Assembly (NCBI RefSeq): GCF_030253575.1
Contig: NC_080560.1
Location: 11,342,501 to 11,406,500 of the forward strand
Source of the DNA: Rhododendron vialii
Lineage: Eukaryota > Streptophyta > Magnoliopsida > Ericales > Ericaceae
Length of the DNA stretch: 64,000 nucleotides
Direction of reading: 5' to 3'
Shown: positions 2,553 through 63,258 of the stretch, in pieces
How positions within the stretch are numbered: the stretch's first letter is position 1
How the letters are laid out: every line of letters starts with the position of its first letter
The notes under the pieces: model-generated
What the model was told of the DNA's origin: nothing
The model's input: the letters and a program-made list of their open reading frames with translations, nothing else
Database searches by the model: none
Made by a program: the position numbers and the translations under genes

Positions 2553-2940
<388 letters not shown>

Positions 2941-3059
2941 TGAGCATACAGCACACTCTCATTTTGGCTTACAGGTTCTTACGCCATTGTCTTTCTAATT
3001 ATTGATCCTCCTCCTTTTAGGTCTTGGAACAACTCAGTGGCCAATCTCCTGTGTTCTTC

Positions 3060-4097
3060 TGTTTACATCTGTTTTTGGCACCAAATCTTGGGCTAGCGCT
3101 GGAGGGCCATTTAATTAAATGTTAATTAAATTGGGCCGATATTTATGACTTTCTCAGACTTAAAATTACTGGGCCACATTAATTTTGTAATTTGGAGCAA
3201 GGCCCAATTAATTTTAGTCTAGAAGCTTGGCCCATGTTTTATTTTGTGAGAATTGGCCCATGATTTGTGGATTGACTCCAACCATTGGGAACAAAGAAGA
3301 TTGTGGACTGTGATGCATGGAATAATTGTCCCAAAGCCATGTGATCATATGGCCCCCACGTCCTTTGATTTCTCCACGCATAAAAGAAGTAGTTAAGTCT
3401 TTATTCCAAAAATTGGAGGCAATAAGGGACACATGGCAAGCTGTGGACATTTGGGAAGTTGGAGAATAACCCCATGATCTCCATTTTCGTATGTTTGGGT
3501 AGTGGGCAATCAAGTATCAACATTTTGGCTCCAACACAATGATAAAAACTGCTGATAACCGCTGCATTTGAAGGAAAAAATGGCAAACATGGGACACTTG
3601 GCATCTCCAAGAGAAGGCAAAGAATTCTTCTGCATGCAAAAAACCGTGAAGCCTATTGCCTATAAATAGAAAAACTCAAGAAGAAAAAAAGGTTCACACA
3701 CCAATCAAACTTAACGCTTAAAACCAAAGCCTTCCTAGCGAAGCAATTATCTCATTTCTCCCTTATTTCTATCTCTCTTGTACCCCAATTTTGTTATTAC
3801 GACATAACAAAGTTATTCCTATATCTTTTGTACCCCCAACTTTATTATTACGATATAATAAAGTTATTCTACGTTTGTTCTTCTTTTTCTCACACGGTTG
3901 GAAAATTTTAAGTCCACTTCGTTGTGACAAACCACGAACCTCATTGTGGTCTCACCCTTTGGGTCACACGCAGTCGCACTACATACGAAGTCAGATTCTG
4001 TACGTTGGACGCCGATAAGTCCTGGCACGCCCGCGCTCACACCGCACACGCCATTGGATTTTCCGCTCACGCCTACCCTGCAAAAAAGTGGAAAACA
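3060..4097 (+). mobile_element. Solo LTR (Gypsy-type) inside RPL11 exon 2
   Basis: The LTR begins tgtttacatc and ends gaaaaca, giving TG...CA ends. It is flanked by a 5-bp target duplication with one mismatch (tcttc at 3055-3059, tctcc at 4098-4102). It carries a TATA-like tataaata near 3662. It shares a block around 3700-4040 with the LTR at 1049-2153 and the one at 4582-6281, including the tggcacgcccgc motif. No internal region remains, so it is a recombined solo LTR. The near-perfect duplication suggests moderate age. Confidence 0.85.
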
Positions 4098-4106
4098 TCT
4101 CCAAAT

Positions 4107-4581: not shown

Positions 4582-6281
4582 TGTTTACACCCATTTTTGG
4601 CCAAAAATCAAGAAATGGATTTACAGGTTAAAAGGTAGCCTCGAGGGTCGAGGCCCTAGCCTTGAAAGCTCTTACGACCAGTTGCCCACGAATTAGGGCC
4701 GGTTCTTAAGAAATGATGGGCCTTCCATATAGGCCTAAATCAGTCAAAGGCCTAAGGCTTGAATCAGTCCACCAGGCCTGAGTATTTCGTCCAGACCTAA
4801 CCCAAATTCCTAGAAGTAACAAAGGCCTAAGAAATGGGCCCAAATTGGTAGAAGCCTTGGTTTTCTCACCAGGCTTGGGCTCAGAAGGCTTACATTGGGC
4901 AAAGGCCCATGATTTACCAACAAGTTTAAGCCCAATTGATGAAAGGCCCACTGCTTTAAGAGCATCGTTAAAGCCTTTAAGGAGCAATTAAGGGGCCTTA
5001 AGCTGCTCACAAGTAGCTCAAAGGCCTTAAGCTGCTCACAAGCAGCTCACAAGGAGCTCAAAGGCCTTAAGCTGCTCACAAGCAGCTCAAAGGCCTTAAG
5101 CTGCTCACAAGCAGCTCAAAGGCCTTAAGCTGCTCACAAGTAGCTCAAAGGCCTTAAGCTGCTCACAAGCAACTCAAAGGCCTTAAGCTGCTCACAAGCA
5201 GCTCAAAGGCCTAGAATATTCCTGATAGGTAGGTTTGGGTAAGCTGCTCACAAGCAGCTCAAGGTCTGAACTGGTGGGACCCCATTCTTCAGCATGAAGC
5301 AAGGCTAGAGACAGGTGGCGCACATGTAGCCCTTGGAGCTGTTGGTGAATGATTCATGCAGACCTAAGCAAGCTGCTCACAAGCAGCTCATCCAGGTCTG
5401 GTTAATCCTTTGTTTCTGGATCCTTCTTCCGTGAAAGATGACCCTCAGAGGATTTAGAGGGCCCACAAGTATGCAAGGTCCAATAAAATGATAAGAAAGG
5501 CCTGGTGAAGTATTGGTCTGCAGCTGTGGTGGGCCCGGAATGGCCTAGATACTGCAGAAACTGAAATTTTCTTTGTTCTTTTTCAAAGTTATATTCAGAA
5601 AAGAAGGATTTTTCAGGCCTTTGCCCTTTTCTTGGAGTAAAAGGCACGTTTTGTTCAGAGAGTAGCCCCTCATTGGAGCATTTCGAAGATGCTCAAGCTC
5701 AAGCCTCTGATAGAAGGCCATGTGGCAACCATGCATTGGAGCATTTTGAAGCAGCTCAAGGCCTGTAGCTCCTATAAATCACAGTTCTGAAGGCCTTGGC
5801 TATGGTCCACGACCATCAAAGCCCATGGCTTATCCAAATTACATTTCAATTATCTTTTAACTATTTTTATCTTTCGGTCCCCGACCAAACAAGCCCACGG
5901 CTTATCGTTCAATTAACTTTACTTTTCTAGAATAGTTTGTACTCAATCTAGCCAAGCCTAGATTTTATTTCATTTCCTTGTAATCAGACTTTGTTAAACC
6001 GTTAATAAAGTCCATTTATTTCTGTTTTAGGCCTTGCTCTACCTTTCTGTCCATTTTTCACACGATTAGGAAATTTTAAGTCCTTAGCCCGCAAAGGCAA
6101 ACCACGAACCTCCTCACGGTCTCCACCCTTAGGCCGTGCACTTTCGTCCAATTAGAAGTCAGATTAAGGCTTCCAGGCCTTGATACGAATTTGGGCAGCA
6201 ATCCTGCCCTGGCACGCCCGCATCAGGCCTAGAACTGCACTACTCGTTGTTCCTAGGCCAATTTTTACATTTTTCGGAACA
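4582..6281 (+). mobile_element. Solo LTR (Gypsy-type) in RPL11 intron 2
   Basis: A block of about 1700 bp begins tgtttacacc and ends cggaaca. It shares its 3' third (cacacgattaggaaatttta, accacgaacctcc, ctggcacgcccgcatc) with the neighbouring LTRs, but its 5' two thirds differ, so it belongs to a related family. It holds a TATA-like tataaatc near 5773 and an array of 29-bp repeats at 4986-5215. No clean target duplication is seen (actaa against atcaa). It is a fossil without internal region. Confidence 0.65.
4986..5215 (+). repeat. 29-bp hairpin tandem repeat inside the LTR
   Basis: Seven to eight copies of a 29-bp unit lie head to tail. Each contains agctgctcacaagcagct, whose arms agctgct and agcagct can pair over a caca loop. 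Single extra copies of the hairpin occur near 5239 and 5371. One unit is longer by a small insertion (aagcagctcacaaggagctc). Confidence 0.85.
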
Positions 6282-6984
6282 ATCAACTAGCCAAGCTGAT
6301 GAAGTAGCTAAATAAGTAGAGTCCTGTTCCTAATCTCCAGTGGGAACATGGAAATGATCTAGTTGTAATCTTCCAATAGTTGGATATCTTCAAATAGTTG
6401 GATTAAATGGATGTCTGATTGGTAATGGAAAAGAATGCCTCGGTAATAAGTAGTTCTGTTATATGCTTATGTATATTGGGTAAGTTTAATATTTAAGGTG
6501 AAGTTCGGTCTATTCTCTTCTAAGTATTTGGGCAAACACACAGAGGGTTATGTAAATTATTTTATTTTTATGTTTATCCCGGTTTCTATCTGGTAACCTT
6601 CTAGCTTTTGCATAATATGGTTAGCTTTATAAAACGCAATAGACTAAGCTCTTCTCTTTGCGTGCCGATAGAATCAAATCTTTAACGTTGTTTTAGTATG
6701 TCTTGCTACATTAATATTACGAGCTGTTGATCAAATTTTTTTTGTGCGAGCTTAAGCTTATCTTGTGTTTGGTTGCCGATCAAATGTTCCTAAAACAGCT
6801 GAAATACAAAGATGACCTTTTGATTCTTCAAATCTTGAAATTAAATCCTTTGCGAACAGAGCCGAAAACGAATCATTTGACGTTGTTTAGTTGGATTCTA
6901 ATTGTTCAAACTGAAACAACTAGAAACTGAAGTTTCATTTTTTCTAGCTACTAAAATAACTTCTTTTTTAATCATGGGTACTAA

Positions 6985-7326
<342 letters not shown>

Positions 7327-7329: not shown

Positions 7330-7662
<333 letters not shown>

Positions 7663-7665
7663 TAG

Positions 7666-8967: not shown

Positions 8968-9327
8968 GGAAAAATTTCAAAAAAGCCACTGAACTTTCTG
9001 ACAACTTGCAAAAAAACACCTGAACTTTCACTATTAACAAAAAAATACCTAAACTTAGCATTCTGTTAGCAATTAAACCCCTGCCGTCCAATTCCGTCAA
9101 TTTTTAACGGATGAAGCTAACGGAAGGCGTTAACTTTTTATTTATTTTTACTTTTTACATTCAAAAATTACTTTTAACTCTTTCTTTTTTTATTGGTAAA
9201 TAAATATGCAATAAAGTTCTTTTTTTTTCTTACTATTTATCAAAAATTACTTTAACTCTATTTTTTACTATTTACAAAAATAACTTTAACCACCATCTTT
9301 TTTGTTACTTTCAAATTTTACCTCTCC

Positions 9328-9426
<99 letters not shown>

Positions 9427-10220
9427 CCTCCTTTTTTTTTAGAGAACTTTAACCCCACTCCACCAATCAACTGCCAAAGCTCTAGCTCTAATTTTAGAAA
9501 ATCGAAATTATTCTTTTTTTTAGCATTCTTGTTTTTTATATTTTTTACTTCCAAAATTACTTTTAACTCTTTATTTTTAGTAGTAAATAAATATGAAATA
9601 AAGTTTTTTTTCTTACTATTTATCAAAAATTACTTTAACTCTAATCTTTACTATTTATAATAATAACTCTAACCCATTTTTACTATTTATTGCATATTTA
9701 TTTATGACTAAAAAAAAGAATGAGTTAAAAGTAATTTTTGGAAGTAAAAGTAGTAAAAAAAAAGAAAAGGTTACAAAGAGGAGGTTAAAAGAACTTTTGA
9801 ATTTTTGAAATTGTGGCTAAGGCTTTGGCGGTTGGTTGTGGGGTTAATTGGTGGTGTGGAGTCGATTCTAATAAGAAAAAAAGGGAGAGAGGGGGCGGGG
9901 GGGGGGAAGGGTAAAATTTGAAAATAAAAAATAGGGTTAAAGTAATTTTCGATAAATAATAAGAAAAAAAGAACTTAATTGCATATTTATTTACCAATAA
10001 AAAAAGAAAGAGTTAAAAGTAATTTTTGAATGTAAAAAGTAAAAAAATAAAAAGTTAACACCTTCCGTTAGCTCCATCCGTTAAAAATTGACGGAATTGG
10101 ACGGCAGGGGTTTAATTGCTAACGGAATGCTAAGTTTAGGTGTTTTTTTGTTAATAGTGAAAGTCCAGGTGTTTTTTTGCAAGTTGTAAGAAAGTTCAGG
10201 AGCTTTTTTGAAATTTTCCC
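8968..10220. mobile_element. Mutator-like non-autonomous element with long TIRs
   Basis: The element has a perfect 9-bp target duplication, aacttttta, at 8959-8967 and 10221-10229. Its ends (ggaaaaatttcaaaaaagc and the complementary right end) form imperfect terminal inverted repeats of about 300 bp, including ttccgtcaatttttaacgg. A 9-bp duplication with long TIRs is the mark of the Mutator superfamily. No transposase frame is present. The interior has a (TC)n run and a second inverted pair at roughly 9530-9770 derived from the TIR sequence. Confidence 0.88.
9331..9430. repeat. (TC)n microsatellite
   Basis: About 95 bases of nearly pure TC dinucleotide lie inside the Mutator-like element. 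The long Arg-Glu frame it yields on the minus strand is an artefact. Confidence 0.95.
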
Positions 10221-20298: not shown

Positions 20299-21561
20299 AC
20301 TCGCGGATCCGGGGATCCAGCAGCTCTGCCGAACTGCTGGAAGTATAGGGCACCAAAACTACGTTGTTTTGGTGCCAAATGGAAATGCCTCTAAAGTCAT
20401 CAAAACTACGTCGTTTTGAGCCAAGGAAACAAACCAGCTGAATACCTCAATGCTGAGCAAAAAAAATTAAGTGTTCTAAATTTCAATCTGTTTGAATCGG
20501 TGGAAAGATTTTATTTTTCTAATCATTTTATTCTAAAGGGTCATAATTAAATTTTGACTATAAGGCTTTCATTAATTAGCCCTAAGAAATTCATAGAACC
20601 AAATATCTCTTAAGGCTAATTAACGAGAGTCCTAGAGCCAAAAATTAATTATGACCTTTTAGAATGAAATGATTAGAGAAATAACATCTTCATACCGGTT
20701 CAAACGGATTGAAAATTAGAGCACTTGATTTTTTATATTTTAATTTTTCAACGTCTAAAGAGTTTATATATTAAAAAATATGGTTAAAAAATTAAGTGTT
20801 CCAAATTTCAATCCGTTTAAATAGGTGGGAAGATTTTATTTTTTGATCATTTTATCTTAAAGGATTATAATTAGTTTTTGACTCTAGAGCTCTCGTTAGT
20901 TAGCCCTAAGAGATATTTGGTTCTACGATTTTCTTAGGGCTAATTAACGAGAGCTCTATAGTCAAAATTTAATTATGACTCTTTAGAATAAAATGATCAG
21001 AAAAATAAAACATTCTCACCAATTCAAACGAATTGAAATTTGGAATACTTAATTTTTTAACCATATTTTTTAATATATAAACTCTTTAGACGTTGAAAAA
21101 TTAATATATAAAAAATTAAGTGCTCTAATTTTCAATCCGTTTGAACCGGTACGAAGATCTTATTTCTCTGATTATTTTATTCTAAAGGGTCATAATTAAT
21201 TTTTGGCTCTAAGACTTTCGTTAGTTAGCCTTAAGAGATATTTAGTTCTACAAATTTCTTAGGGCTAATTAACGAGAGCTCTATAGTCAAAATTTAATTA
21301 TGACCTTTTAGAATAAAATGATTAGAAAAATAAAATCTTCCTACCGATTAAAACGGATTGAAATTTGGAATACTTGATTTTTTTTTTCTCAATTTTTTTT
21401 TCTCAACACTGAGGTATTTTGCTAGTTTGTTTCCTTAGCTCAAAACGCCGTAGTTTTGATGGCTTTGGAGGCATTCCCATTTGGCACCAAAATGACATAG
21501 TTTTGGTGCCTTATACTTCCAGCAGTTCGGCAGAGCTGCTGGATCCCCGGATCCATCGAGT
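20299..21561. mobile_element. Giant palindromic TIR element carrying palindromic modules
   Basis: The outer arms of about 165 bp (ggatccggggatccagcagc, then ttttggtgccaaatgg) are inverted at both ends. Inside, three palindromic units based on an aagtgttcc...tcataattaa module follow, and the spacers between them are themselves reverse complements across a centre near 20930. The whole element is therefore one nested palindrome. No protein is encoded and no target duplication is evident. Confidence 0.75.
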
Positions 21562-25527: not shown

Positions 25528-26649
25528 GGGCAAATTTCACTCAGACCCCTGAGGTTTATGACAATGACAGATGGTACCCTTCAGTTTTTAAAAATGACAG
25601 AAACCTCCCCTATTTCACAGTTTGGGTTTCATTCCGTTAGTTCCGTTAGTGAAATGGATGGAAAATGTACGTAAATGTACGGAAAATGAAATCTTCAATT
25701 TTATTTAGTTCTATAGCTATCTTAGGACTCTCATTGAAAGTCCTAGAGTCAAAAATTAATTATGATCATTTAGGATAAAATGATTTAAAAAATAAAATTT
25801 TTGCACCAATTCAAACATATTAGAATTTAGAGCATTTAAAATTTTGCTCTTCATTTGGTTTAGGGCTTTCAATGAAGAGAAAATACTTAAGTGCTCCAAT
25901 TTTCAATCCATTTGAATCGGTGCGAAGATCGTATTTTTCTGATTATTTTATCCTAAAGTGCAATAATTAATTTTTGGTTCTAAGATTTTCAATGAGAGCC
26001 CGAAGATAGCCGTAAAACTAAACGAAGAGGAGATACTTAAGTGCTCAAATTTTCAATCCATTTGAATTGGTGCGATAATCTTATTTTTTTGATTATTTTA
26101 TCCTAAAGGGTCATAATTAATTTTTCGCTTTAGGACTTTCAATAAGAGCCCTAAGAAAACCATAGAACCAAATGAAGAACAAATACTTAAGTGCTCCAAT
26201 TTTTAATTCGTTTGAATCGGTGTGAAGATTTTTATTTTTTTATCATTTTATCCTAAATGGTCATAATTAATTTTTGGCCCCAAGGCTTTCAATGAGAGCC
26301 CTGAGAGAGCCATAAAACCAAATGAAGAGAAAATACTTAAGTGCTCCAATTTTTATTTCGTTTGAATCGATGCGAAGATCTTATTTTTCTGATCATTTTA
26401 TTCTAAAGGGTCATAATTAATTTTTTGCTCTAGAACTTTCAATAAGAGCCCTAAGATAGCTGTAGAACTAAATAAAATTGAAGATTTCATTTTCCGTACA
26501 TTTTCCGTCTATTTCATTAACGGAACTAACGGAATGAAACCCAATGAAACCCAAACTGCGAAATAGGGGAGGTTTCTGTCATTTTTGAAAACTGAAGGGT
26601 ACCTTCTGTCATTGTCAGATACCTCAGGGGGTCTGAGTGAAATTTTCCC
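25528..26649. mobile_element. Mutator-like element carrying the palindromic module array
   Basis: A perfect 9-bp target duplication, tttcttttt, lies at 25519-25527 and 26650-26658. The inverted ends of about 150 bp start gggcaaatttcactcagacc. The interior has one reverse copy (about 25689-25835) and four forward copies (starts near 25884, 26033, 26184 and 26334; period about 150 bp) of the module also seen at 20.5 and 49.3 kb. No transposase frame exists. Confidence 0.88.
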
Positions 26650-31040: not shown

Positions 31041-31207
31041 ATGGTGAATACCCTAAGAAAAGAGAGGGAGGCAAAAACTGTGGCTGATACATGGCCTGTT
31101 AAGTTTGGGTTGATACCCATATTGATAAATAACTCAAGTGCATGACCTTCACTTGAGGAACACTCAAGACTATATACCTCCATATTCATAGAGTTTCCAA
31201 TACCCAG

Positions 31208-34200
31208 ATGGGTTTCGCAATGGCATCTTTGCCATTTCATCTCTCGCTGTGTTTTCTTGTTCTCTTGTGCTTAGGTTCTGGCTTTCCTCGAACAGCTGGA
31301 GCGGTGCTCAGTGGGAATGAGACTGACCGATTAGCCTTGCTTGCATTCAAGGATGAAATAACCAGTATTAATCCCTTTGGGGCTTTGAGTTCGTGGAATC
31401 AATCTTTCCATTTCTGCCAGTGGAGTGGTGTAACATGTGGACGTCTGCACCAAAGGGTCATTGTGCTAGACCTTGATGATCAACACCTATCAGGGTCCAT
31501 TTCGCCTCACATTGGAAATTTAAGCTTCCTTAGGGAGATATGGTTGGATAACAATAGCTTAAGTCATCAAATCCCCCTGGAACTTGGTCGTTTGCAGAGA
31601 CTGCAAATATTGTCTTTGAGCAATAATTCAATTGGTGGCAAAATTCCCGCCAATATATCTGCTTCTTCTTGCCTTACTAGGGTGCACTTATCTTTAAATA
31701 GGCTGGAAGGGCAAATCCCAGAGGAGCTTGGTTCCTTGTCAAACCTCAAGGTACTGAATGTTGAAAAAAACAATCTAACAGGAGTTGTCCCGCGTACTTT
31801 GGGAAATCTATCATCTCTCCAAACTTTTAAAGCCCTCCAAAATAGTATTAGTGGGAATTTACCTGACGTGCTGGGCAGACTGACAAACCTTAGAGGTTTT
31901 GGAATTGCAAATAACAGGTTAGTTGGTACAATTCCTTCCTCAATCTTTAATCTTTCCTCTATCCGAGCTTTTGATGTAGGAAGGAATCGAATTCAAGGGA
32001 GCTTTCCATCAGAGCTAGGCATAAATCTTCCTAATCTCGAATTTCTTGGAGCTAGTAGTAACTTGTTTACTGGATCAGTTCCTTTTTCACTTTCCAATGC
32101 CTCCAAGCTACAAATTGTTTCAATGGGAAACAATAAATTCACTGGTAAGCTTCCTTCACTTGGAAAGTTGCATAATCTTCGGTCATTAAGCTTTTCTCGT
32201 AATTATCTTGAAACTGGAGAAACTAATGATCTAAACTTTCTCCCCTCTTTAACGAATGCCACCAATTTGTTTCTTTTTGCCATCAATGTTAATAACTTTG
32301 GAGGGGTGTTGCCAGATTCCATCCGCAATTTCTCCACTAATCTGCGTATACTTGCCTTGGACAACAACAAAATAACTGGAAACATCCCAAGTGGGATAGG
32401 TAGTCTGATCAATTTGGTAGGAATTTATTTGTGGAACAACGAATTTACTGGTGAAATCCCACCTGATCTTGGGACGTTTTGCCAGCTACAAGAGTTGAGT
32501 CTTTCCGGTAACAAGTTCTCTGGGAAAATCCCAATGTTTTTGGGAAACTTAAGTTTGTTAGCCAAACTTTATTTGGAAGAAAATTACTTCGATGGAAACA
32601 TCCCTTCAAATCTAAGGAATTGCAAACTGTTGGAAGTTTTAAGTGTTGATCGTAACAATCTTACTGGTACCACACCTAGAGAAGTTGTAAGTCTCTCATC
32701 AATGTTGAATCTCACTGCATCTGAGAACCATTTGACTGGTTCACTTCCTATAGAAGTTGGAAGTATGAAAAATCTGGAAGTATTGGATGTTTCTAATAAC
32801 ATGTTGTCTGGTGAAATTCCATCCACCCTCAGCAGCTGCGTAAAATTGAGATTGTTGCTTGTGGAGGCCAATAACTTCCAAGGGACCGTTCCCTCATCTT
32901 TTAGTAATTTGAGAGGTTTGGAGGAACTAGATCTTTCTCGCAATAGTCTCTGGAAAACTCCCAGATTTTTTGGCCGACGTCAATTTTTTGCAGAAATTAA
33001 ATCTATCAATGAATGATTTCGAGGGTATGGTACCGGAAAGAGGCATCTTCAAGAATGCAACAGTTGTTTTTCTTCAGGGAAACTACAGGCTTTGTGGCGG
33101 CATACCTGAATTATGCCTACACAGTTGCAAGTCCAAAGGGTCTACGAGGAAAAGATCTCTTATCCTGAAAATAGTAATTCCCCCAACAGTTGGCCTGGTT
33201 GGAGTACTTTTGATGATCTACTTTCTCTATTGTTCACGGTTTAGAACGAGAACAAAAGTACCCTCTCTCGGAATTGCAGGGAATACATTTCAGAAAGTAT
33301 CCTATCAAAGTCTACGTCAAGCTACTGGTGGGTTCTCTGAAGCCAATTTGATTGGAGTGGGTGGTTTTGGTTTGGTGTATAAAGGAATTCTTGATCAAGG
33401 GGGACAAGTTGTTGCAGTGAAGGTTCTAAACCTTGAATTCCGTGGGGCATCAAAGAGTTTCCTAGCTGACTGCAAGGCCTTGAAGAGCATGAAACACCGG
33501 AACCTTGTAAAGGTGCTCACTGCCTGTTCAAGCATTGACTATCATGGAAATGATTTCAAAGCCCTGGTTTATGAATTCTTGGTCAACGGGAGTCTAGATA
33601 AGTGGCTGCATCTGAAAGAGAATGAAGATGCAGCGAATGCGGATTCAAGGCACTTAAGCCTTCGACAGAGGTTAGATATTGCCATTGATGTTGCTTCTGC
33701 GCTTGATTATATTCACAATCATTGCCCTGAACCAATAGTGCACTGTGATCTGAAACCAAGCAACATTCTTTTGGACAACGAAATGACTGCACATGTAGGT
33801 GACTTCGGCTTGGCAAAAATCTTTCCAAAAGCCATCGTTAACTCCTCTCAATTTCATGATATGTCAAGTTCTCTTGGCATAAGAGGCTCCGCTGGCTATG
33901 CTGCTCCAGGTAGATACACTTCTCTGGTTCTTTTGACCTCAGGCTCCTTTATGTTTTCCTTTTGAACTTCACTTTCCACGTAGAATCTCTTTCTGACACA
34001 CATAGCTATTGATTCTGCTCTTTATTCCTAGTTCCATTGTATAAGTCTTTCATGGAGCAGCATAACCTTACTTCAAATACAGTATGTGCCCAACGTCTTT
34101 TCTACAAGTCTGCTACTGGAATGTAGATTCGCTTCATTTTCTTATGAGTAAGTTATTTACAGTTTTATTTTTTTTAACGAATGAATTGCAGAGTATGGTA

Positions 34201-34583
34201 TGGGAAATGAGGTGTCAACATCTGGCGATGTGTACAGTTATGGCATCCTCTTACTGGAATTGTTCACGGGGAAGAGACCTACGGATGACTTGTTTTCTGA
34301 TCAATTGAGTCTCCATAATTTTGTTAAGATGGCTTTGCCTGAACAAATAGAGGGAATTGCCGATCCAGCACTGTTCAAACAAAGGGAAAGGGCAGTGGCA
34401 AGCTCAAGCGGCCCCATCATTCTGTATCATAGCTCTTCTAGTGGTCAAAGAACTCTGGAGTGCTTGATTTCAGTTCTTAAAGTTGGAATTGCATGTTCAG
34501 AGGAACTTCCAAGAGATCGGATGGCCATTAACGATGTTGTTGCTCAGTTGCATGTGATCAGGAACCTTCATTTTGGAGGCTAG
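31208..34583 (+). pseudogene. LRR receptor-like kinase, subfamily XII (EFR/Xa21 type), frameshifted
   Basis: The product would be a plasma-membrane pattern-recognition receptor kinase. A signal peptide (FHLSLCFLVLLCLGSG) is followed by an LRR N-cap (SSWNQSFHFCQWSGVTCG), some twenty LRRs of the xxLxGxIPxxLGxL type, a membrane span around 33172-33234 and a kinase. The kinase has GVGGFGLVYKG, VAVKVLN, HCDLKPSNILL (non-RD) and DFGLAK. Exon 1 runs to 33909, and exon 2 is 34192-34583 after a 282-bp GT-AG intron at the family's usual place (between AP and EYGMG). Near 32950-32952, around codon 581, the frame shifts: compared with its neighbour, agtctctgga lacks two bases. Downstream everything is open again. 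If the shift is real this is a young pseudogene; if it is a sequence error, the protein would be about 1031 residues. Confidence 0.8.
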
Positions 34584-36493
34584 TGGAAAAGATGGAATGG
34601 CAACATGGTCATGAATAGGTATGACCCTGTCAGAGTCTTATAAAAGGGTAAAAATGCATGCAGTCGATACCATTGTTCTGCACAAAAGCCAGCAAATTTT
34701 ACTTCTCCCTGACTTCAGTTTTCCCTGTTGTTCTGTTATAAATACTCTACTTCTCTGACATAATATTTGGGAGGAAATAAACTACGAGCTACTATCCAAG
34801 TCATGCAGAGGGTTTGTGATCATATGGGAAAGATTTTGTTTGCTTTATGTTCTTTTCATTGAACTTGGATTCTTGACCAAATACATTTTGGTATTTTAAG
34901 GTATGGAGCAACTGAGCAGGAAGTGAATTCAGATAGCTCTCGACCTGGTCTGCTGTTAATAGTAATGCTTCAAATCGTGACATCATTTTTCTTCTTATTT
35001 AAGGAGAAAATAATTCAACTCGTTTTTTTTTTTGAGGGAGGATTCAACTCGTTTCACAGTACATGCTTTACACTAAACAATTGTGTACGAGATGATCAAG
35101 TAAAGTTTTACGCTAATTGGTGCCAAACCAAAGTTATATTCCCTTCAGATTGACACGTTCTGTTAGTGCCTAGTGGTTACAACAACACCGTGGTAAAATT
35201 CTGTTAGTATAACAATCATGGGATTTAAGCCTAGCTGTGCTCGGCTTTGACTTGCACTGGTAGCGCTGCTACACTAACTACACTAAATTTAAGTGGTGGA
35301 GAATGTACAATTGTTGATACATGTAAACAATAATAGGTAACGGAAGAAGGATAGAGAGAGGAAGCACATCATTTTGCATGGTTTGGCCATAATAAGTTAA
35401 TAATCCATGTCCATGGGAAAATGTCCATGGGAAAAGATCAACAGCAGAGGAATGCATTTTGAGGCACACACATCCACATGATGAATTCTGCATGAATACA
35501 GCTCAAAGCATCAAGTTGGACTGGGCATGGTTTAAATTTCGGCCTCTTTCATTTCACCCTCTTGTCATATGGTTTGCAACTTTTTTCACATAATCGTTCA
35601 CTAATATAGGGAAAAAAACCTGGTTTTTAAGCAACTGATATTTCATTTGTTCTTCAATATCATATCAACCCTACTTGTTGGGTATCTATTTTTTCCTCTT
35701 TTCCCAGGTACCTGATGTCTAATTAGTATTGAAGGTATCATGTTTTCCCTTCAGGGAAGGAAGGTATCACTTAATAACTAGTACAAAACCTTTAACTCCA
35801 AGTACGCTATTTGCTACAATCCCAGGTCAGAAGATTAAAGGAGCAGAAGCTGCTTTGTTTTCATATATTTTACGGGTTCCCAATGCCTTATGTACTTTTC
35901 TATGCCCTAAAGCTTATGCGTGGACAAGTTTGGGGCATTTCTTCTTGAAGGGGCCATATTTCGCGAATTGAACTTGAAAGCTAACATCTTGAGTTAACTA
36001 GTGGATTAATTACGTGTAGGTCTAAGTTCCATGAACTTACTTTCTCCCAAGTTGGTAGATTTGAACTTAATTACCTCTAGGTTTGAAGTCATGACATGAC
36101 TTATGGGGAATTGTCTGAGTTCAAAAGGTGCAGAGAATTCTACGTTCTTCAAAACCACAATTGGGGGGCAATAGATAATTGTGATTTTTCTGGACCGGTA
36201 CAATGCTCCTTCAATTTTAATTCGTGAATTTTTGTCTTCATGTTTTAGTCAAGATCGGGAGCAGACTTGTCTCCAGTGCCTGTCCTGCTAGGGAGAAGTT
36301 TGGCATAGAATAGTCTTGGTTAGATGTAGTAAAAGCTTGGAAAGGTTGTTTAAAGACTTGGAAAGGTAGTTTGAGACTTGGGCAAAGGAAAGAAATGAGA
36401 AATTGAAAACAAGTGCATGACCTTATACTTAAAGAAACACTGAATACAATATGGAAAAAGAATTCCAGATTCATAGAGAAATCCTACTCTCCC
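34584..36493. other. Spacer between the two LRR kinases
   Basis: It holds the 3' flank of the first kinase and the upstream region of the second. No further gene or clear element ends are visible. Confidence 0.45.
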
Positions 36494-39400
36494 ATGGGTT
36501 TAGCAATGTTGTACTCATGGCCATCCTCTTTTGCCGTGTATTTTGTTGTTCTCTTGATCTTTGGTTCTGGCCGTGCGATTGGCAGGAATGAGACTGACAA
36601 ACTGGCTTTGCTAGAATTCAAGGCTGAAATAACTAGTGATCCCTTCAGGACTCTGAGCTCATGGAACGAATCCATCCACTTTTGCAAGTGGAGTGGTGTA
36701 ATATGTGGACGTCGGCACCAGAGGGCCGTTGCGTTAGATCTTAATGGTCAAGAATTGGCTGGGTCCATTTCCCCTCACATTGGAAACTTGAGTTTCCTTA
36801 GGGAAATCTGGTTGCGCGGCAATGCATTGAGTGGGAAAATACCTCCACAACTCGGCCGTTTGCACCGACCGCAAATCTTGAGTTTGCGCAACAATTCGAT
36901 TGCCGGAGAAATTCCTGCCAATTTATCGAGTTCCTCTAGACTTACTGTGATTGAGTTTCACACAAATAGGTTGGAAGGGAAAATTCCAGAAGAGCTCGGT
37001 TCGTTGTCAAACCTCAAGGTACTCAGTCTTGTGAAAAACAACTTGACTGGAGTTATTCCATCTACTTTCGGGAATCTGTCATCTCTCCAATTATTTTCTG
37101 CCCTTCAAAATAATATTAATGGCAATTTGCCGGACGTGCTAGGTCAATTGACAAACTTGGGAGCTTTAGCATTGGGAGTTAACAGGTTTGTTGGAACGAT
37201 TCCTTCCTCAATCTTTAATCTGTCTTCTCTGCATGTACTTGATGTGGGAATGAACCAACTTCATGGGAAGCTTCCTTCAGACCTAGGACTAACTCTTCCT
37301 AATCTCCAATTCCTTGGAGCTAGTGCTAACTTTTTTACAGGTTCAATTCCTTTTTCACTTTCCAATGCCTCCAAACTACAGATTGTTGGCATCGCAGACA
37401 ATCGATTAACTGGAAATGTTCCTCATCTAGAGAAGTTGAATGATCTTCAGAAATTAAGCTTTTCCGGTAATTATCTCGGAACTGGGGAAGCTGATGACTT
37501 GAGTTTTCTCTCATCTTTAACCAATGCCACTAGTTTGTATGTTTTGGCTCTACACATCAATAGGTTTGGAGGAGTTTTGCCTAAATCAATCACCAATTTC
37601 TCTGCTGTTTTTGCTCAACTAATCTTGAGTAGAAATGAAATATCCGGGAACATCCCAACTGGGATAGTGCATCTGACTAATTTGGTGCAGATTGAATTGT
37701 CATATAACCTATTCACCGGCGAGATTCCGGATGATATTGGGAAGCTTCAACAGCTGCAACTTTTGAGTCTCTCAAACAATAATTTCTCTGGGAGAATCCC
37801 ATTGTCTTTGGGAAATTTATCTATGTTAAGTCAACTCAACTTGGCCTCAAATAAGTTGTATGGAAACATCCCTTCAGATCTCGGGAAATGCGATCATCTG
37901 AGGGCTTTAGGTCTTTATCAAAACAATCTTCATGGTACCATTCCTAGAGAAGTTACAAGTCTCACATCATTGTTGTATTTCAGTGTATCTGAAAATGATT
38001 TGACTGGTTCCCTTCCAGTTGAACTTGGAAATTTGGAAAATCTAGAAGTACTGCTTGTTTCTGAAAATAGGTTGTATGGTGGAATTCCAAGCTCCCTTGG
38101 TAGTTGCGTAAAATTGAAATTTCTATCTATGAAAGGGAACAACTTCCAAGGGATTCTTCCTTCCTCTTTGAGTTATTTGAGAGGTATCGAGGAATTAGAT
38201 CTTTCTCGGAATAATTTTTCAGGTGAAATCCCAGAGTTTTTGGGGGACTTCAAATTCCTTCAAATATTAAATCTATCCTCAAATGATTTCTCTGGTGAGG
38301 TACCTGAAAGGGGCATCTTTAAGAATGTCACTGCCCTTTTCGTTGAAGGAAACAATAAACTTTGTGGGGGCATACCTGAATTACAGCTACGCGCTTGCAA
38401 CTCCGAAGGGTCTAAAAGGAAAAGATCTACTCTTGCCTTGAAATTAGTAATCCCAATAGTTTTTAGCCTTGTTGGACTACTTTTGATGGTCTTTTACCTT
38501 TGTCATTCGTATAATAGAAAAAGAACAAATTTACCCTCTTTCCAAGTTTTTGGGAGCACATTTCAGACCATATCATATAAAAGTCTAGTTAAAGCTACTA
38601 ATGGTTTCTCCCCGGTGAATTTGATTGGGGTGGGTAGTTTTGGATCGGTGTATAAAGGGATTCTTGATGAGGGTGAAAAAGTTATTGCAGTGAAGGTACT
38701 AAACCTAGAAGCCCGAGGAGCATCCAAGAGTTTCATAGCTGAGTGCAAGGCCTTAAAGAGCATCAAACATCGAAATCTTGTAAAAGTGCTCACAGCATGT
38801 TCAAGTATTGACTATCATGGTAATGATTTCAAAGCTCTGGTTTATGAATTCATGGCTAATGGAAGCCTCGAGGAGTGGTTGCATCCAAATGAGAACGAAG
38901 ATGAGACGAATGAGGATTCGAGGCATTTGAGCATTCTACAAATGTTAGATATTGCCCTTGATGTTGCTTTTGCACTTGATTATCTACACAATCATTGTCT
39001 GGAATCTATTGTCCATTGTGATCTAAAGCCAAGCAATGTTCTTCTAGACAATGAAATGACCGGACATGTTGGCGACTTTGGGTTGGCAAGATTCCTTTTA
39101 GAAGCGTCAGACACTTCTTCAAATCAGTCAACCTCTATCAGCGTAAGAGGCTCTATTGGTTATATTGCTCCAGGTAATTCAACATCTTCTCTATTTTCCT
39201 TTCATATTCACTTTCCAATATGTTCTAAATCTGATTCACATAGACATTGAGTCTACTCTTATCACTAAAATAGTGCTGAAGAATTTTTGCGAAACTCGCA
39301 ATGTTATTTTGCCTTAGAAACGCAGAAATTGGGTTGTGCAGGGTCGAGGCAATTCCTTGGCTCATGAAATGGCTTCCTGGGCTCTCAGAAACAAGTCCTC

Positions 39401-45591: not shown

Positions 45592-48045
45592 TCATCTAGG
45601 ATTAGAAAGAACTGATGCTTGCATAGGAGTTGAAAGAACTGATGATTGTAGTGTTGCAGAAACATGGCCACTGGCAACGGAAGAAGATCCCATTGCATGG
45701 GTGAAGTCGTAGCTGATACTTGGATCCACTTCCATCACTCCTTCCAAAACCTTCACCACGGTCGACATGAGAGGCCTTTTAGTGGGATCATTTTGTAAAC
45801 ACCAAGCTGCAATTCTTATCATTCTCAACATTTCTTCTCGATTTTCAGGCATCTCCTCGTTCAAATCCTCCACAATGTCAAGTAATTGATCGTCCCTTGC
45901 CTTCTTCTGCATCAAACTGAGTAGATGTTTGCTGGATTCTGATCGGGTTCCATCTAAATTTTTCCTGCCGGTAACTATTTCGAGGAGAACAATCCCAAAA
46001 CTGTAGATGTCAACTTTTGTTGTGCTATTTGAATGGCCACATTCTGGAGCAATATACCCAGGAGTTCCTCTCAAAGTGATCAGGACCTGGCTGTTGTCCC
46101 TGTCTACTAGCTTAGATAACCCGAAATCCGAGATTTTGGCATTGAAATTTGCATCCAAGAGAATGTTTTGTGGCTTTATGTCAAGGTGAATGATTCTCTG
46201 TCTGCATTCTTCATGCAAATAGGCCAACCCTTTGGCTATCTGGTGAGTAATCTTCTTACGGGTTTCCCAATCGAGACAAGGTTTTTGGTCCCTATGAAAG
46301 ATCCATTGGTCTAAAGACCCATTACTCATGTACTCATATACTAGAAGGCAAGATTTATCTGCAGAAAAGCCAACCAATCTCACCAGATTAAAATGGTGGA
46401 TGCTGCCAATTGTTTCAACTTCTGCTATGAATTCCCTAACTGCGTGGCCCACTTTATGTAACCGCTTCACTGCGATCTCAGTGCCATCCGGTAACACTCC
46501 TTTGAACACCGAGCCAAACCCACCACTACCAAGCCTCTCCTTGAAATCCCTTGTTGCCACACGAAGTTGCTCATGCGTAAACATAACGGGCATCCCCGGA
46601 ACTTGTCGCATATACTCCTCGACATCCTCTGTGATCGTCTTGCTAAATTTCTTCCAGAATATCAGTATTGAGAGACAGAAAATCAATAGGACAGCAGAAC
46701 CGGAGCCTGCTATTATCTCTATTAGTCTGTTTCGGTTTTTCGGTGCCAGTTTCTCCACTTTAATATATGCTGTTGATGTGAAATTGTAATTTGGAATTTC
46801 TCCTTCTCTTACGGACAAGACCTCTGATGGAATATAACAGAAACCATTTGAATGATTGTTATTATCATACCCGTAGAATGCAGCTTCACATGAACAATTA
46901 TTGTGACAAGCTTCTTTACAGCTCTCTAAATCTGTGATGTTTGAAGCTGCTGCATTTGGATCAATGAAATTGAAGTAACTGACATTTTTCATTTCGACCA
47001 GGTCTGCTTTATCAGAGCGAGCTTGGCACAATTGGGTAGTCCTGGAGCATCTATCATTCTTCCATTTAAACCCTTTGACTCCTTTGGGACAACCACATAT
47101 CCCTTCATCGCAGAAGCCGAAATCCCCGCATTGGCGAGGAAGTTGACAGACTCCGAAATCTTTGGTAACCATATCGACAATCTCATTTGCCCTGGTTGCT
47201 GGTTCGTGCCTGTATAACTTCAAACTCCCATTGCTATTGAGTCGTACGTACTCAACAGACAAATCCAACGGCAGTTTTGAGCGGTTTGATCCCATGTTCT
47301 CGAGGAATCCTCTGGTTTGGAGCTCTGCGTTATCTGAGGTATTGACTTCGATTTTCGTTAGAAGAGGACACCGGCCTCTAAGTGAACTTTGATCCGTGGT
47401 ATCCGGCTCTGGTTCCAGCTGGTAGTACATCTGTGATCCACCGTTACCCACCCTGGTAAATGCAGCTAGTCCAGAGATTGTTACAGTGGCATAGTACAAA
47501 CCCGACACAAGCCTCTGATCCTCGTACAACCGTTGTCCGGCCAACAATGTATCGGTTGGGTGATCAAAAGACTGCCAAACAGCTCCCGTCTCATTAAACA
47601 AAACCAAGTTTCCCAATTCGGTTAAGTTCATTCCCGCCACAGAGATCCCTGCCGTTCCGGTCGACCACACAGTCGATCCATCCGGATTCCGGAGCACTAA
47701 ATCCCCCTCTCGAGTCAGTGTCAGGTTCGCGTTCTCGCTCACCGGGTGTTCCGGGTTTGCTGACCAAACCAAGGCGGGATTGCCTCCTCCAACGACAGTA
47801 ATGCCGAAGTAGTAAGAGGTGCAGTTGCCAGTGCAGTAGAATCCAGAGACAAAGCCGAGGCTCCTTGTTCTTGATAGAATTGCTCTTACTTTTGATCCGT
47901 CGGTGCTGTTTACGTTCATGTCGATCGAGTTGTCGTTTAGCCATGACGTCGGTTCGCTTGAGTTGAGGAGGATTGTGGGGCTGGTTGCGGCTAGAGTGCA
48001 GGCAAAGAAGTAAGGTATAATGAACAGGAAAATGGAGGAGTCCAT
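45592..48045 (-). CDS. G-type lectin S-receptor-like Ser/Thr kinase (SD2-5-like), copy A
   Basis: A single-exon frame of 817 residues encodes a plasma-membrane receptor kinase. In order there is a signal peptide (1-20, IFLFIIPYFFACTLAA), a bulb-type lectin domain (about 60-165, with VWSANPEHPVSENANLTL), an EGF-like Cys cluster near 300-325 (CGDFGFCDEGICGCP), a PAN-like Cys cluster near 375 (CKEACHNNCSCEAAF), a membrane span near 440-465 and a kinase. The kinase has LGSGGFGSVFKG near 504, AVKRL, HLDIKPQN near 620 (Leu before Asp, so not RD), DFGLSK and GTPGYIAPE. The lack of introns is usual for the group. Compared with copy B it lacks one Val in GAVVWQSF and about 25 residues next to the membrane. 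It looks intact. Ligand and role are unknown; relatives act in defence and stress signalling. Confidence 0.92.
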   Translation of the reverse strand: MDSSIFLFIIPYFFACTLAATSPTILLNSSEPTSWLNDNSIDMNVNSTDGSKVRAILSRTRSLGFVSGFYCTGNCTSYYFGITVVGGGNPALVWSANPEHPVSENANLTLTREGDLVLRNPDGSTVWSTGTAGISVAGMNLTELGNLVLFNETGAVWQSFDHPTDTLLAGQRLYEDQRLVSGLYYATVTISGLAAFTRVGNGGSQMYYQLEPEPDTTDQSSLRGRCPLLTKIEVNTSDNAELQTRGFLENMGSNRSKLPLDLSVEYVRLNSNGSLKLYRHEPATRANEIVDMVTKDFGVCQLPRQCGDFGFCDEGICGCPKGVKGFKWKNDRCSRTTQLCQARSDKADLVEMKNVSYFNFIDPNAAASNITDLESCKEACHNNCSCEAAFYGYDNNNHSNGFCYIPSEVLSVREGEIPNYNFTSTAYIKVEKLAPKNRNRLIEIIAGSGSAVLLIFCLSILIFWKKFSKTITEDVEEYMRQVPGMPVMFTHEQLRVATRDFKERLGSGGFGSVFKGVLPDGTEIAVKRLHKVGHAVREFIAEVETIGSIHHFNLVRLVGFSADKSCLLVYEYMSNGSLDQWIFHRDQKPCLDWETRKKITHQIAKGLAYLHEECRQRIIHLDIKPQNILLDANFNAKISDFGLSKLVDRDNSQVLITLRGTPGYIAPECGHSNSTTKVDIYSFGIVLLEIVTGRKNLDGTRSESSKHLLSLMQKKARDDQLLDIVEDLNEEMPENREEMLRMIRIAAWCLQNDPTKRPLMSTVVKVLEGVMEVDPSISYDFTHAMGSSSVASGHVSATLQSSVLSTPMQASVLSNPR

Positions 48046-48100
48046 GGTTACTGTGAAACAAATTTATTGAGGATCTGTTTACGGTGGTGCTTGATCAAGC

Positions 48101-48102
48101 TG

Positions 48103-48140
<38 letters not shown>
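48101..48140. repeat. (GA)n microsatellite upstream of copy A
   Basis: A GA run lies about 60 bp before the ATG. Copy B has the equivalent run at 56714-56748, so it may be a conserved leader element or simple repeat. Confidence 0.9.
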
Positions 48141-48142
<2 letters not shown>

Positions 48143-48885
48143 TACAAGTCCAAGTCAAGATGGGAGACTAGTCAGGCAAAGCTTGGGAGCCGTACAATAG
48201 GCATCTTTGATTAGAAGAAAGATAGAAACTTCCACCCCCCTACGAAACGCATGCCAGGGCCAGTGAAACTCTAAAATTCTTGTCGTTTCTCATTTCCATT
48301 TAATGTGGTTTTTGGAAACAAAAACAAGAGTTCAATGAACCAACTGTAGTTACTCGGGTTGTTTTCACAAAGATAGTTCTCGGAAATTCGATATAATACG
48401 ACTCGGAAGTATTTGGCAAAAAATGAGTGTTTGATCCTTTTCAAGAAAACTACACTGGATATAATTTCTGGAAACAATTTGTCGTATTGTGTATCGTGTT
48501 AGTTTCCATTCTGCTTCCGGGTTTTAGAGAATGATAGTAACCTCTCAGGAAAATGATAAGAACGCGTTAGTGACACAGTCTTGTATTTTCTTGGTTTTTT
48601 TTTTTTAATAAGAACTGCTCTGAAAATGAAGTTCCTGATTTGCATACCCTCAATTGTTATTGAGGAAATAATTTGCAGTGCAACTGATGGATGAGGAAGA
48701 AAAACAATACGTATCGATTTCTCTTTACAATTTGAAAGTATGTTTCCATTGATTTCTCTTTACAATTTGAAAGTATGTTTCCATTGCCTTTTCGTTCGCC
48801 AAAATTTTCATCCAAATTCAGTCTCGTTACATGTCATTTACTCTCCGGGATATGTTTAGACCAAATGCATTGAATGATAACCTGA

Positions 48886-49071
48886 GGAGTTTGGCCAAGT
48901 GGGCCAAGTGGTATGAGAAAGTAAATGAATGTTTACTTTCCATGAGATCACATATTCAAATTTCAAGAAGGTCAAACATTCGAAATCTTGGGGCCATTAG
49001 AGGATTTGTGTCCAAGAATTAATCAAGATGCGCGTATGCTGGCTCGGACATGCGATTCTTAAAAAAAAAAA
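48886..49071 (+). mobile_element. Au-like SINE in duplication unit 1
   Basis: The head gtttggccaagtgggccaag leads to a B-box-like stretch, and the tail reads caagatgcgcgtatgctggc followed by an A run. The copy in unit 2 is split by repeat R, so insertion predates the duplication. Confidence 0.6.
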
Positions 49072-49189
49072 GATGCACAAAATGATCACCTTATCGTACA
49101 GTGAAAGGTGTTGGAAGGGTATACTTTTGCAAATCTCTTTGCGCGCCCCCCGACACACCCCCCGCCCGACCCCACCCCCGGACCAAACT

Positions 49190-50402
49190 ACCCCCGGCAA
49201 TATTCAACCCACGCCGTTTTCTTATTTTTTATTTATTTACTTAATAACTTTTATATCTTTTTTCATTTTTATTTATTTAATATTATTTAAGTGTTCCAAA
49301 TTTCAATCCGGTTGAATCGATGCAAAGATCTTATTTTTTTTTATCATTTTGTCTTCAATGATCATAATGAATTTTTGGCTCGAAAGCCTTTCAACAAGTA
49401 CCCTAAGACTTATTATTTAGTTTCAGGTCTCTCTTAGGGTGCTCATTGAAAGGTCTTAGAGCCAAAAATTCATTACGATCATTTAGGATGAAATGATAAG
49501 AAAAATAAGATCTTCGCACCGGTTCAAACGAATTAAAAATCGGAACACTTATTTTTTTACTCTTTATATGTATTTTTAAATTATTTAATATTATACCCGG
49601 CAATAATTCAACCCAAGGCATTTTTTTATTTCTTATTTATTTACTTAATAACTTTTATATATTTTTTCATTTTTATTTATTTAATATTATTTAAGTGTTC
49701 CAATTTTCAATCCGGTTGAATCGATGCAAAGATCTTGTTTTTTTTTATCATTTTGTCTTCAATGATCATAATGAATTTTTGGCTCGAAGGCCTTTCAACA
49801 AGTACCCTAAGACTTATTATTTAGTTTCAGGTCTCTCTTAGGGTGCTCATTAAAAGGCCTTAGAGCCAAAAATTCATTACGACCATTTAGGATGAAATGA
49901 TAAGAAAAATAAGATCTTCGCACCGGTTCAAACGAATTAAAAATCGGAACATTTATTTTTTTACTCTTTATATGTATTTTTAAATTATTTAATATTATAC
50001 CCGGCAATAATTCAACCCATGGCATTTTTTTATTTCTTATTTATTTACTTAATAACTTTTATATCTTTTTTCATTTTTATTTATTTAATATTATTTAAGT
50101 GTTCCAATTTTCAATCCGGTTGAATCGATGCAAAGATCTTATTTTTTTTTATCATTTTGTCTTCAATGATCATAATGAATTTTTGGCTCGAAAGCCTTTC
50201 AACAAGTACCCTAAGACTTATTATTTAGTTTCAGGTCTCTCTTAGAATGCTCATTGAAAGGCCTTAGAGCCAAAAATTCATTACGACCATTTAGGATGAA
50301 ATGATAAGAAAAATAAGATATTCGCACCGGTTCAAACGAATTAAAAATTAGAACACTTATTTTTTTACTCTTTATATGTATTTTTAAATTATTTAATATT
50401 AT
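49190..50402. repeat. Three-unit 404-bp tandem array with internal palindromes
   Basis: Units start at about 49190, 49595 and 49999 with cccggcaat[a]attcaaccca and are nearly identical. Each contains a forward and a reverse arm of the aagtgttcc...tcataatgaa module, forming a palindrome of about 270 bp. The 72-residue minus-strand frames at 49403 and 49807 come from the repeat and are not genes. Confidence 0.9.
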
Positions 50403-50947
50403 ATATGTGAGTAAATTTCTTTATGTTATTGAAATTTCTTTAGAGTAAGAAGGCTTTTAAAAGTAAAACAAAAAATAACTAAAAGTAAAACAAAAAAAAG
50501 TTAGTAAAAGTTTAAAAAAAAAAAAAACAGTAACAGTAATTAAAGTTTTTTATAAGTAAACAAAAAAATTCGGAAAAATTAAAAAAAATTAAAACAGTAA
50601 TTAAAGTCTTTTAAAAGTATAAAAAAATTAGTAAAAGTAAAAAAAAAATAAAACAGTAATTATTTACTTTTAAAAGTAAAACCAAAAAAAATTAGTCAAA
50701 ATGAAAAAAAAAAAAAAACCGAAAAAGAAGGGGCAAGGGGGGAAAGGCAGTGGGGCCGGGGAAGGGGGGTGGTGTCAGGGGGGGTGCGAGAAGAGGCCCT
50801 CTTTTGAACTTGGGAAAATTACCAATGGCGCTGCTATTTGCAGCCCTTTATTTTCTCTCATAATTTATTAAAATTTTTTAATTATACTCGACAGATAGTT
50901 ACCGAAATTGAGATATATTTCCAGCATCCAATTACCGAAATATAATA
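50403..50947. repeat. A-rich degenerate repeats and G-rich patch
   Basis: Roughly three degenerate copies of a 50-60-bp unit (aaaacagtaattaaagtctt) end in a G-rich stretch at 50730-50800. That stretch resembles the complement of the C-rich stretch at 49140-49195. The two may be the ends of one element enclosing the 404-bp array. Confidence 0.45.
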
Positions 50948-51228
50948 CTCCCTCCGTCCCCTTTTTAATATCCAGATACCATTTTGGGCTGTCCCTTAAT
51001 AAGTGTCCATTTTGTAAAGTTAGTGGGAAAAAGTAGATATATTTTCTATTTTGCCTCTAAAAGTAAATTCCTTTTTGAAAAGTTAGTGAGTAAAAATATA
51101 ATGATGATGTCTCCATAAAGGGTAAATAGGAAAAGTAGAGGTAAAAGTTGATGTGAAAGAGGTAATGATGATGTTTTCTTAATAAGTTGGAATTACGAAG
51201 CCGGTCACTTAAAAAGGGACGGAGGGAG
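50948..51228. mobile_element. Stowaway-like (mariner) MITE
   Basis: The inverted ends ctccctccgtcccctttt and aaaaagggacggagggag are flanked by TA dinucleotides (50946-50947 and 51229-51230). This is the classic end sequence and target of plant Stowaway MITEs. Confidence 0.85.
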
Positions 51229-51230
51229 TA

Positions 51231-51454
51231 TTTTTTTCAATAGCTATTTACCGAAAATGTATGTTCGGCAGTTGTTTACTGAAAGTTGAACATATTTTCG
51301 ACATGTAGTTACCGAAATATAATATTGTTTTTAACGGCTATTTACCGAAATATTATGTATGATTTTCAACAACCATTTACCGAAATGTCGTAGGCTATGG
51401 GAGAAAATAAAGGACTGTAGGGGTGGACAGTGAAGTGGTAAAATCATGAAAAAA
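51231..51454. repeat. Degenerate taccgaaat repeats
   Basis: Several units of about 45 bp containing ttaccgaaat occur here and at 50890-50945, so the Stowaway-like MITE landed inside this small array. Confidence 0.55.
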
Positions 51455-51771
51455 CAAAACCCTCATCCTTTTTTTTTTTTCCTTTCTTCTTTCTCTCTCC
51501 CTTCTCTTTACCGTTTGGTTCTTGTCATAGTTGTGTTTTATCATTGCAGGTGGTGGAGGCTATAGGTTTCCGCGTGCTAGAAATGTCGCCCCTGTTCAAC
51601 GTTTTCAGATGCAAGACTCAGGTGCTCCGATGATCTTACTTCGAACTTTTGCTGGTTATCTTTAGGGGTGCTCAAGTCAAACACATTCGTGACATTTTGC
51701 TGGTTCTATGATATCATGACATTTTCAAAAAAAAAAAAAAAAAAAAGTCAAACACAGTATTGCTTAGGCTT

Positions 51772-52324
51772 GGGTTGTAAATGAACTGACCCATTCGTGA
51801 ACTGTTTGAGGCTCAACTCGGTAAAAGCTCGTTTGAGTTCGATTCAACTAAATGAACCGAACCTTAGCCTCAATTTCAGGCTCGTTTCATAAATGAGCCG
51901 AATATGAGCCTAACAGTATTCAGCTCAATTAGGCTTGTGAATCTGTAACATATGTATATCACGGGATTTTTATAAGAATTTTGAATACGTATATAATAAA
52001 AATTTTAGAACTTGTACAAGTATAAACTTTTAGAATTACTAAAAACATATTTATGTATATGTTTTTATCGTTTTATATATGTATGACTGTATTTATGTAC
52101 TTCGTAAAATTTTATTTACATTTTTAGAGCTATATGAGAGTATAAATATATGATATTATTGGCTCGTGAACAAACTCGAGTTTGACTCAAACCTAGGCAA
52201 GCTCAGCTCAAGCTTGGCTCGCCAAATCTTAATTGAGTTCAACTCGAGTTCGAGTTCCCTTAAAAACTTAACGAACAAATCTGAACATTCTAATATCTGG
52301 CTCAATTTGGCTTGTTTACAGCCC
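51772..52324. mobile_element. hAT-type MITE with gggctgtaaac ends
   Basis: The ends gggttgtaaatgaac and cttgtttacagccc are inverted, and the interior repeats gctcgtttgagttcgattc-like motifs common in plant hAT MITEs. Related sequence occurs in unit 1 near 42410-42910. Confidence 0.55.
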
Positions 52325-56652: not shown

Positions 56653-56710
56653 GGTTACTGTGAAACAAATGTATTGAGGATCTGTTTACGGTGGTGCTTT
56701 ATCAAGCTGA

Positions 56711-56713
<3 letters not shown>

Positions 56714-56748
<35 letters not shown>
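56714..56748. repeat. (GA)n microsatellite upstream of copy B
   Basis: This GA run is the counterpart of the one at 48101-48140, at about the same distance from the ATG. Confidence 0.9.
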
Positions 56749-56752
<4 letters not shown>

Positions 56753-57574
56753 ACAAGTCGAAGTCAAGATGGGAGACTAGTCTGGCAAAGATTGGGAACC
56801 ATACAATAGGCATCTTTTATTAGAACAAAGATTAGAAATTTCCATCCCCCTACCAAACGCGGGAAATTCGATATAATACGCGCGTCTCGGAAGTATTTGG
56901 CGAAAAATGGGTGTTTAATCCTTTTCAAGAAAGAGTCATTTTATAACCACACTCAACTACACAATCAAATACACACCCATACTCACAATATAGGTGGGGT
57001 TCACACACTACTTCCACCCCTATTGTGAATATGAGTGTATATTTGGATGTGTAATTGGGTGTGGTGTTAAAAAAATTGTTCAAGAAACCATACCGGATGT
57101 AATTTCCGGAAACAATTTGTCATATTTTGTTTCGTGTTAGTTTCCGGGATTAGAGAATGATAGTAACCTCTCTGGAAAACGATACGAACGCGTTAGCGAC
57201 ACCGTCTTGTATCTTCTTGTATTTTCCTTTTTTATAAACAAGAAGTGCTCTGAAAATGAAGTTCCTGATTTGCATACCCTCAATTGTTGTTGAGGAAATA
57301 ATTTGCAGTACTGCAACAGATGGATTAGGGAGAAAAACAATATATGTATCGATTTCTCTTTACAATATGAAAGTGTGTTAATTTCCATTGCTTTTTTGTT
57401 TGCCAAAATTTTCATCCAAATTCAGTATGGTCACATGTCTTTTACTCTCCGGAAATAATATGTTTAGACCAAGTACATTGAATGATGTCTCTTACTCTCC
57501 GGGTATAATATGTTCTGACCGAGTGCATTGAATGATAACAGAGAAATTTGGCCAAGAAAAGCAAATACAATAAC

Positions 57575-57838: not shown

Positions 57839-57845
57839 GCACAAT

Positions 57846-58012: not shown

Positions 58013-58072
58013 AAGTGCACCGAATGATCACCTTGACCTACAGGGAAAGGTTTTTATAGGGTATACTTTTGA

Positions 58073-63228: not shown

Positions 63229-63258
63229 TTTGCTTATGTGTTTTCTTTTGCGCTTCAA

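Follow-up and report, generated by a model that had tools for sequence, protein, structure and literature searches.

Ribosomal protein L11 gene copy of Rhododendron vialii probably disabled by a solo LTR in its second exon

A copy of the gene for ribosomal protein L11 (RPL11; uL5) in Rhododendron vialii carries an LTR within its second coding exon, raising the question of whether this copy is still in use or has been lost and, if lost, how long ago. The window, the whole 64,000-nucleotide stretch of DNA that was analysed (G000:C4:11342501-11406500), was compared with a genome of 532,647,506 bases in 13 contigs, covering one haplotype. The gene copy and the two LTRs within its limits are laid out as follows.

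2827..2937, plus strand: RPL11 exon 1, ATG to AAG, 37 codons, 111 nt
3021..3059, plus strand: 5' part of RPL11 exon 2, 39 nt, of which the last five (3055-3059, TCTTC) are the upstream copy of the target duplication
3060..4097, plus strand: solo LTR, 1,038 bp, TG...CA, family repeat, flanks tcttc/tctcc
4098..4106, plus strand: 3' part of RPL11 exon 2, TCTCCAAAT, of which the first five (4098-4102, TCTCC) are the downstream copy of the target duplication
4582..6285, plus strand: LTR of a different family within intron 2, apparently also solo, flanks actaa/actag
7130..7325, plus strand: RPL11 exon 3, 196 nt, open
7467..7665, plus strand: RPL11 exon 4, 199 nt with the stop codon, open

The start of exon 2 at 3021 is preceded by ...TTTTAG and the exon ends at a GTAAAC donor at 4107; the original prediction, in which exon 2 begins at 3021, gives way to an LTR at 3060 and resumes past the LTR before a gt donor, is exact to the base. 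With 3060-4097 and one 5-bp copy removed, the joined exons form 549 nt with no premature stop, whichever duplicate is kept, and encode a 182-residue protein that matches uL5/L11 chains which we take to be from plants (8azw_t, 9h3g_BU, 7qiw_M, 8ip8_EA and 4v7e_CJ) over residues 1-180 or 1-178 (E 4e-114 to 5e-105). The start, the stop and the other splice ends are intact, exons 1, 3 and 4 have no stop before the terminal codon, as had been predicted, and the LTR is the sole disruption of the frame. Since three introns with GT-AG ends remain, a processed copy was ruled out.

A protein search of the genome returned 11 RPL11 pieces, three each from the gene in the window, a gene on C2 (24.11 Mb) and a gene on C6 (28.61 Mb), the remaining two being an exon-4 piece on C2 (46.25 Mb), which matches exon 4 alone (73% over 166 columns), and a weak match on C1 (E 0.12). 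Exon 2 of the C2 and C6 genes, without a separate piece among the protein matches listed, was found by blastn. The exons examined in both genes are free of stops and bounded by canonical GT-AG ends, so the count of paralogues proposed with the original prediction comes to two intact genes. Exon sizes of 43, 196 and 199 nt are common to all three copies and, with the phase, identify the window copy as RPL11. Exon 1 measures 111 nt in the window copy, where it includes the ATG; the paralogues carry their ATG in a separate upstream exon and have an exon 1 of 108 nt.

The inserted DNA has the anatomy of a solo LTR, as had been proposed: a single LTR with the termini TGTTTACATC...GTGGAAAACA, of the TG...CA type, adjoined on both sides by exon sequence. 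As it is the exon, and not the internal start of the repeat family, that adjoins the LTR, no internal region is left. The flanks, tcttc on the left and tctcc on the right, agree at four of five positions, in keeping with the predicted 5-bp target duplication with one mismatch; a match of at least 4/5 between a random pair of 5-bp sequences has a chance of 16/1024 by arithmetic. Removal of the LTR and one duplicate yields 39 + 9 - 5 = 43 nt, exactly as long as exon 2 of each intact paralogue, and this restoration of length and phase, also anticipated, together with the open frame adds support for a target duplication beyond the flank match itself. Exon 2 of both paralogues ends TTCTCCAAAG and, as both read TCTCC, the upstream duplicate tcttc is probably the changed copy. 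A second exon 2 was sought in the window and not found: among the matches listed, one was strong for DNA, 3021-3057 (E 1e-16), and one for the exon-2 peptide, 3021-3056 (E 3e-4), with the remaining listed matches at E of at least 1.6 (DNA) and at least 3.0 (peptide). The 9-nt piece at 4098-4106 is itself at chance level in this search (E 6.4).

DNA of the exon-2 LTR recurs in the genome in at least 76 matching pieces, its own included, a single copy accounting for several of them (40 of 752 candidates were scored). Five full-length pairs of the family were found, and 5-bp duplications (gatcc, cgatc and ggaat) flank all three whose outer flanks were read. The full-length members, such as C11:9077831-9082421 (about 4.6 kb), have the same LTR ends as the exon-2 LTR and pieces 73-88% identical to it but, unlike it, consist of two LTRs around 2.5-2.7 kb, the internal region starting TCTTTTGGCACGCCCGGTGGGAC in three of four and TCCTTTGGCACG... 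in the fourth. The exon-2 LTR shares with the solo LTRs of plant LTR retrotransposons a single LTR, TG...CA ends, a 5-bp duplication and the lack of internal sequence, and differs by its position in a coding exon of a housekeeping gene. Antisense and more diverged relatives of the exon-2 LTR lie just upstream of RPL11, at 1218-1729 and 2076-2153 (74% and 81%).

Judged from sequence, the window copy is very probably a duplicate of RPL11 disabled by a transposon, a fairly young pseudogene backed by two intact genes. One of the three RPL11 (uL5) genes of R. vialii would have received an LTR-retrotransposon insertion in exon 2, and the anatomy suggests that recombination between the two LTRs of the element then left the solo LTR. 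Translated through the LTR, the frame reaches an in-frame stop after 21 LTR codons, and skipping of exon 2 results in a frameshift. The LTR also carries TATAAA (3661-3666) and AATAAA (3857-3862), both in the sense of the gene, so that early termination or transcripts started in the LTR may occur. A read-through transcript would meet the stop or might be cut at AATAAA, and normal L11 would thus be impossible from the window copy without unusual splicing. The intact C2 and C6 paralogues presumably cover the function, and the exons of the window copy would then have drifted without constraint.

The replacements in the exons are those expected if constraint was lost. Over codons 2-180, the set adopted only after the result for codons 2-182 had been seen, the C2 and C6 proteins differ at no residue, whereas the window copy differs from each at six (R34K, S36Y, T46S, A52S, D100E and I108N), with 22 private silent changes in the window copy, 37 in C2 and 20 in C6. 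For this set, private replacements of five versus zero are significant (Fisher p 0.0026; four versus zero with T46S left out, p 0.0081), and a model with two omega values improves on a single omega (p 0.00014). Over codons 2-182, which add the variable codons 181-182 where the C6 replacements lie, replacements to silent changes stand at 5:23 on the window branch versus 4:59 on the other two, one C2 replacement being spurious, from an arginine codon that changed more than once, and the difference is not significant (p 0.13); omega is 0.037 on the window branch versus 0.006 (p 0.017). The comparison of dN/dS with intact paralogues that had been suggested, run on the whole CDS, thus finds a raised value on the window copy, and relaxed constraint is indicated by omega in both codon sets and by the counts only for codons 2-180. 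Positions 34 (R), 36 (A or S), 52 (A) and 108 (I) are uniform across both paralogues and the five uL5/L11 chains, while the window copy has K34, Y36, S52 and N108; replacements at such agreed positions are as neutral drift predicts. S46 and E100 are present in some of the five chains, and T46S and D100E may therefore be old changes.

Drift was not the condition of this copy throughout, as an omega of 1 over the whole window branch is rejected (p about 0.001 in both codon sets, 0.0013 for codons 2-182), so that constraint must have acted on it over most of its past. When a constrained phase and then a neutral one are modelled, the neutral tail fits best at 0.0145 substitutions per site, with a range of about 0.0055-0.03; the loss of log-likelihood is about 2 near 0.0055 and at 0.03, and 4.4 at 0.04. 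In simulated decay without constraint (4000 trials per distance, at an assumed 0.12 indels per substitution), the ATG was kept with neither stop nor frameshift in 34% of trials at 0.015, 11% at 0.03 and 4% at 0.044, and intact exons with at most four replacements had a probability of 0.12 at 0.015, 0.03 at 0.02 and 0.001 at 0.03. At 0.044, about 16 replacements would be expected. Open exons alone are therefore no sign of use, given the third of unconstrained trials that stay intact at 0.015. The original prediction had read the open exons as a sign that the insertion was recent or the copy still mattered: recency is borne out at a few million years by the private changes of the LTR, while continued importance finds no support in the omega and replacement tests or the simulations.

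The LTR itself appears moderately young, and an age of a few million years is supported. Its closest copy, C13:18188444, matches LTR positions 1-833 only and differs at 55 of 829 sites. With four outgroup copies for comparison, the exon-2 LTR has private changes at 19 of 827 sites, 10 of these being C>T or G>A; with a single outgroup the figure is 27 of 786. Its terminal branch is 0.044 (FastTree). Each of these values sets a maximum for the time that has passed since the element inserted. Substitution rates are of the order of 6e-9 to 1.3e-8 changes per site per year, at which 0.0145-0.044 corresponds to about 1 to 7 million years; on these estimates the insertion would be expected in close relatives and not in distant ones. 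The terminal branch exceeds the best range of the neutral tail in the exons; were the whole branch to postdate the insertion, the exons would show too little decay, pointing to some continued constraint. That the branch partly predates the insertion, or that LTRs mutate faster than exons, is more likely than that some constraint outlasted the insertion.

This shortfall of decay relative to the upper-bound LTR date is one of the points in favour of a quite different outcome, in which splicing removes the LTR as a new intron and a slightly altered L11 is still made. Among GT-AG pairs with donor and acceptor within 3021-4106 and the other exons spliced normally, six leave the frame open, including the donor GTTTAC at 3061 with an acceptor just before 4089, which gives an exon 2 of 58 nt and an open protein five residues longer, and the natural intron after exon 1 of the C6 paralogue begins with the same six bases. 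The bases before the donor, however, are AAG at C6 and TCT at 3061. Donors 3037 and 3061 fit one and none of seven preferred positions, versus four to five for the donors of RPL11 itself; the donor at 3121 fits four but retains 61 nt of the LTR as coding sequence. Both candidate acceptors in the LTR have A at -3 and 47-53% pyrimidine upstream, versus 59-88% at the acceptors of the gene. In-frame removal of the LTR was thus rejected, the six combinations having weak sites or adding LTR residues, and with constraint on the exons relaxed a new intron is very unlikely; that a newly born intron yields an L11 variant with a few extra residues that serves as a specialised ribosomal protein would be more far-fetched still. 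The TATAAA and AATAAA motifs in gene sense would also suit an LTR acting as a new promoter or terminator, with exons 3-4 giving a truncated or regulatory transcript. LTRs in general contain such signals, and the model of the whole CDS, in which exons 3-4 are taken together with the rest, finds a neutral tail, making this role highly improbable.

It is also conceivable, though unlikely, that the insertion still segregates and that an empty, functional allele exists, as one haplotype is covered and heterozygosity of the plant is given as 0.89% (PMC10338486). Against this, the private LTR changes (2.3%), the flank mismatch and the six residue differences suggest an age beyond ordinary allelic divergence, an argument weakened for the LTR changes in that these may predate the insertion. 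A single assembly was examined, and an assembly error could have put the LTR into an intact gene; exact LTR ends and a target duplication are not expected from misassembly, and the published assembly, in which haplotype A has 5 gaps, is described as built from HiFi reads (PMC10338486), so that an error of this type is barely credible. Loss of a duplicated gene through the insertion is the explanation retained.

The window copy differs from plant RPL11 in its LTR-split exon 2 and from its two paralogues in lacking an intron after the ATG. Both paralogues have an ATG|gt...ag|GC intron (L024 near 2483; L025, reverse complement, near 2171), which is exactly absent from the window copy at 2825-2838 (CCATGGCCTCGG), the other three introns being kept. 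The 5' UTRs of the window copy and of C6 align, which makes it likely, on an unrooted gene tree, that the first intron was lost precisely.

The loss of gene copies through transposons is already well known and this is an ordinary case, which leaves existing knowledge of the gene and the element unchanged. Its value would lie in being a clean and datable loss of a duplicated ribosomal protein gene, with long constraint, insertion and then drift that is measurable against two paralogues that share all of 179 residues; the site of the exon-2 LTR could date the loss of this copy across Rhododendron species. Among the papers listed in searches on solo LTRs in plant ribosomal protein exons, on a wider subject and on intron loss in ribosomal protein genes, none deals with this case, judging by titles and abstract openings, which is no proof of absence in print.

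Several other repeats and genes occur in the window. The LTR in intron 2 (4582-6285) contains an internal array of 29-bp units (AAGCTGCTCACAAGCAGCTCAAAGGCCTT), the array itself holding an inverted repeat, and has a FastTree terminal branch of 0.015 with weak support. Just downstream of RPL11, at 8968-10220, is an element with terminal inverted repeats, its 180-nt arms 94% complementary and separated by 893 nt. A 404-bp unit occurs in three tandem copies at 49193-50403 (96% matches) and, by eye, the units of arrays at 20461-21397 (325 bp) and 25871-26460 (150 bp) are similar to it in sequence. Long open frames at 31157-39250 and 45592-63267 resemble, also by eye, receptor kinases of the leucine-rich-repeat type (plus strand) and the lectin type (minus strand), and one candidate receptor kinase copy, at 60997-63267, is split into several frames.
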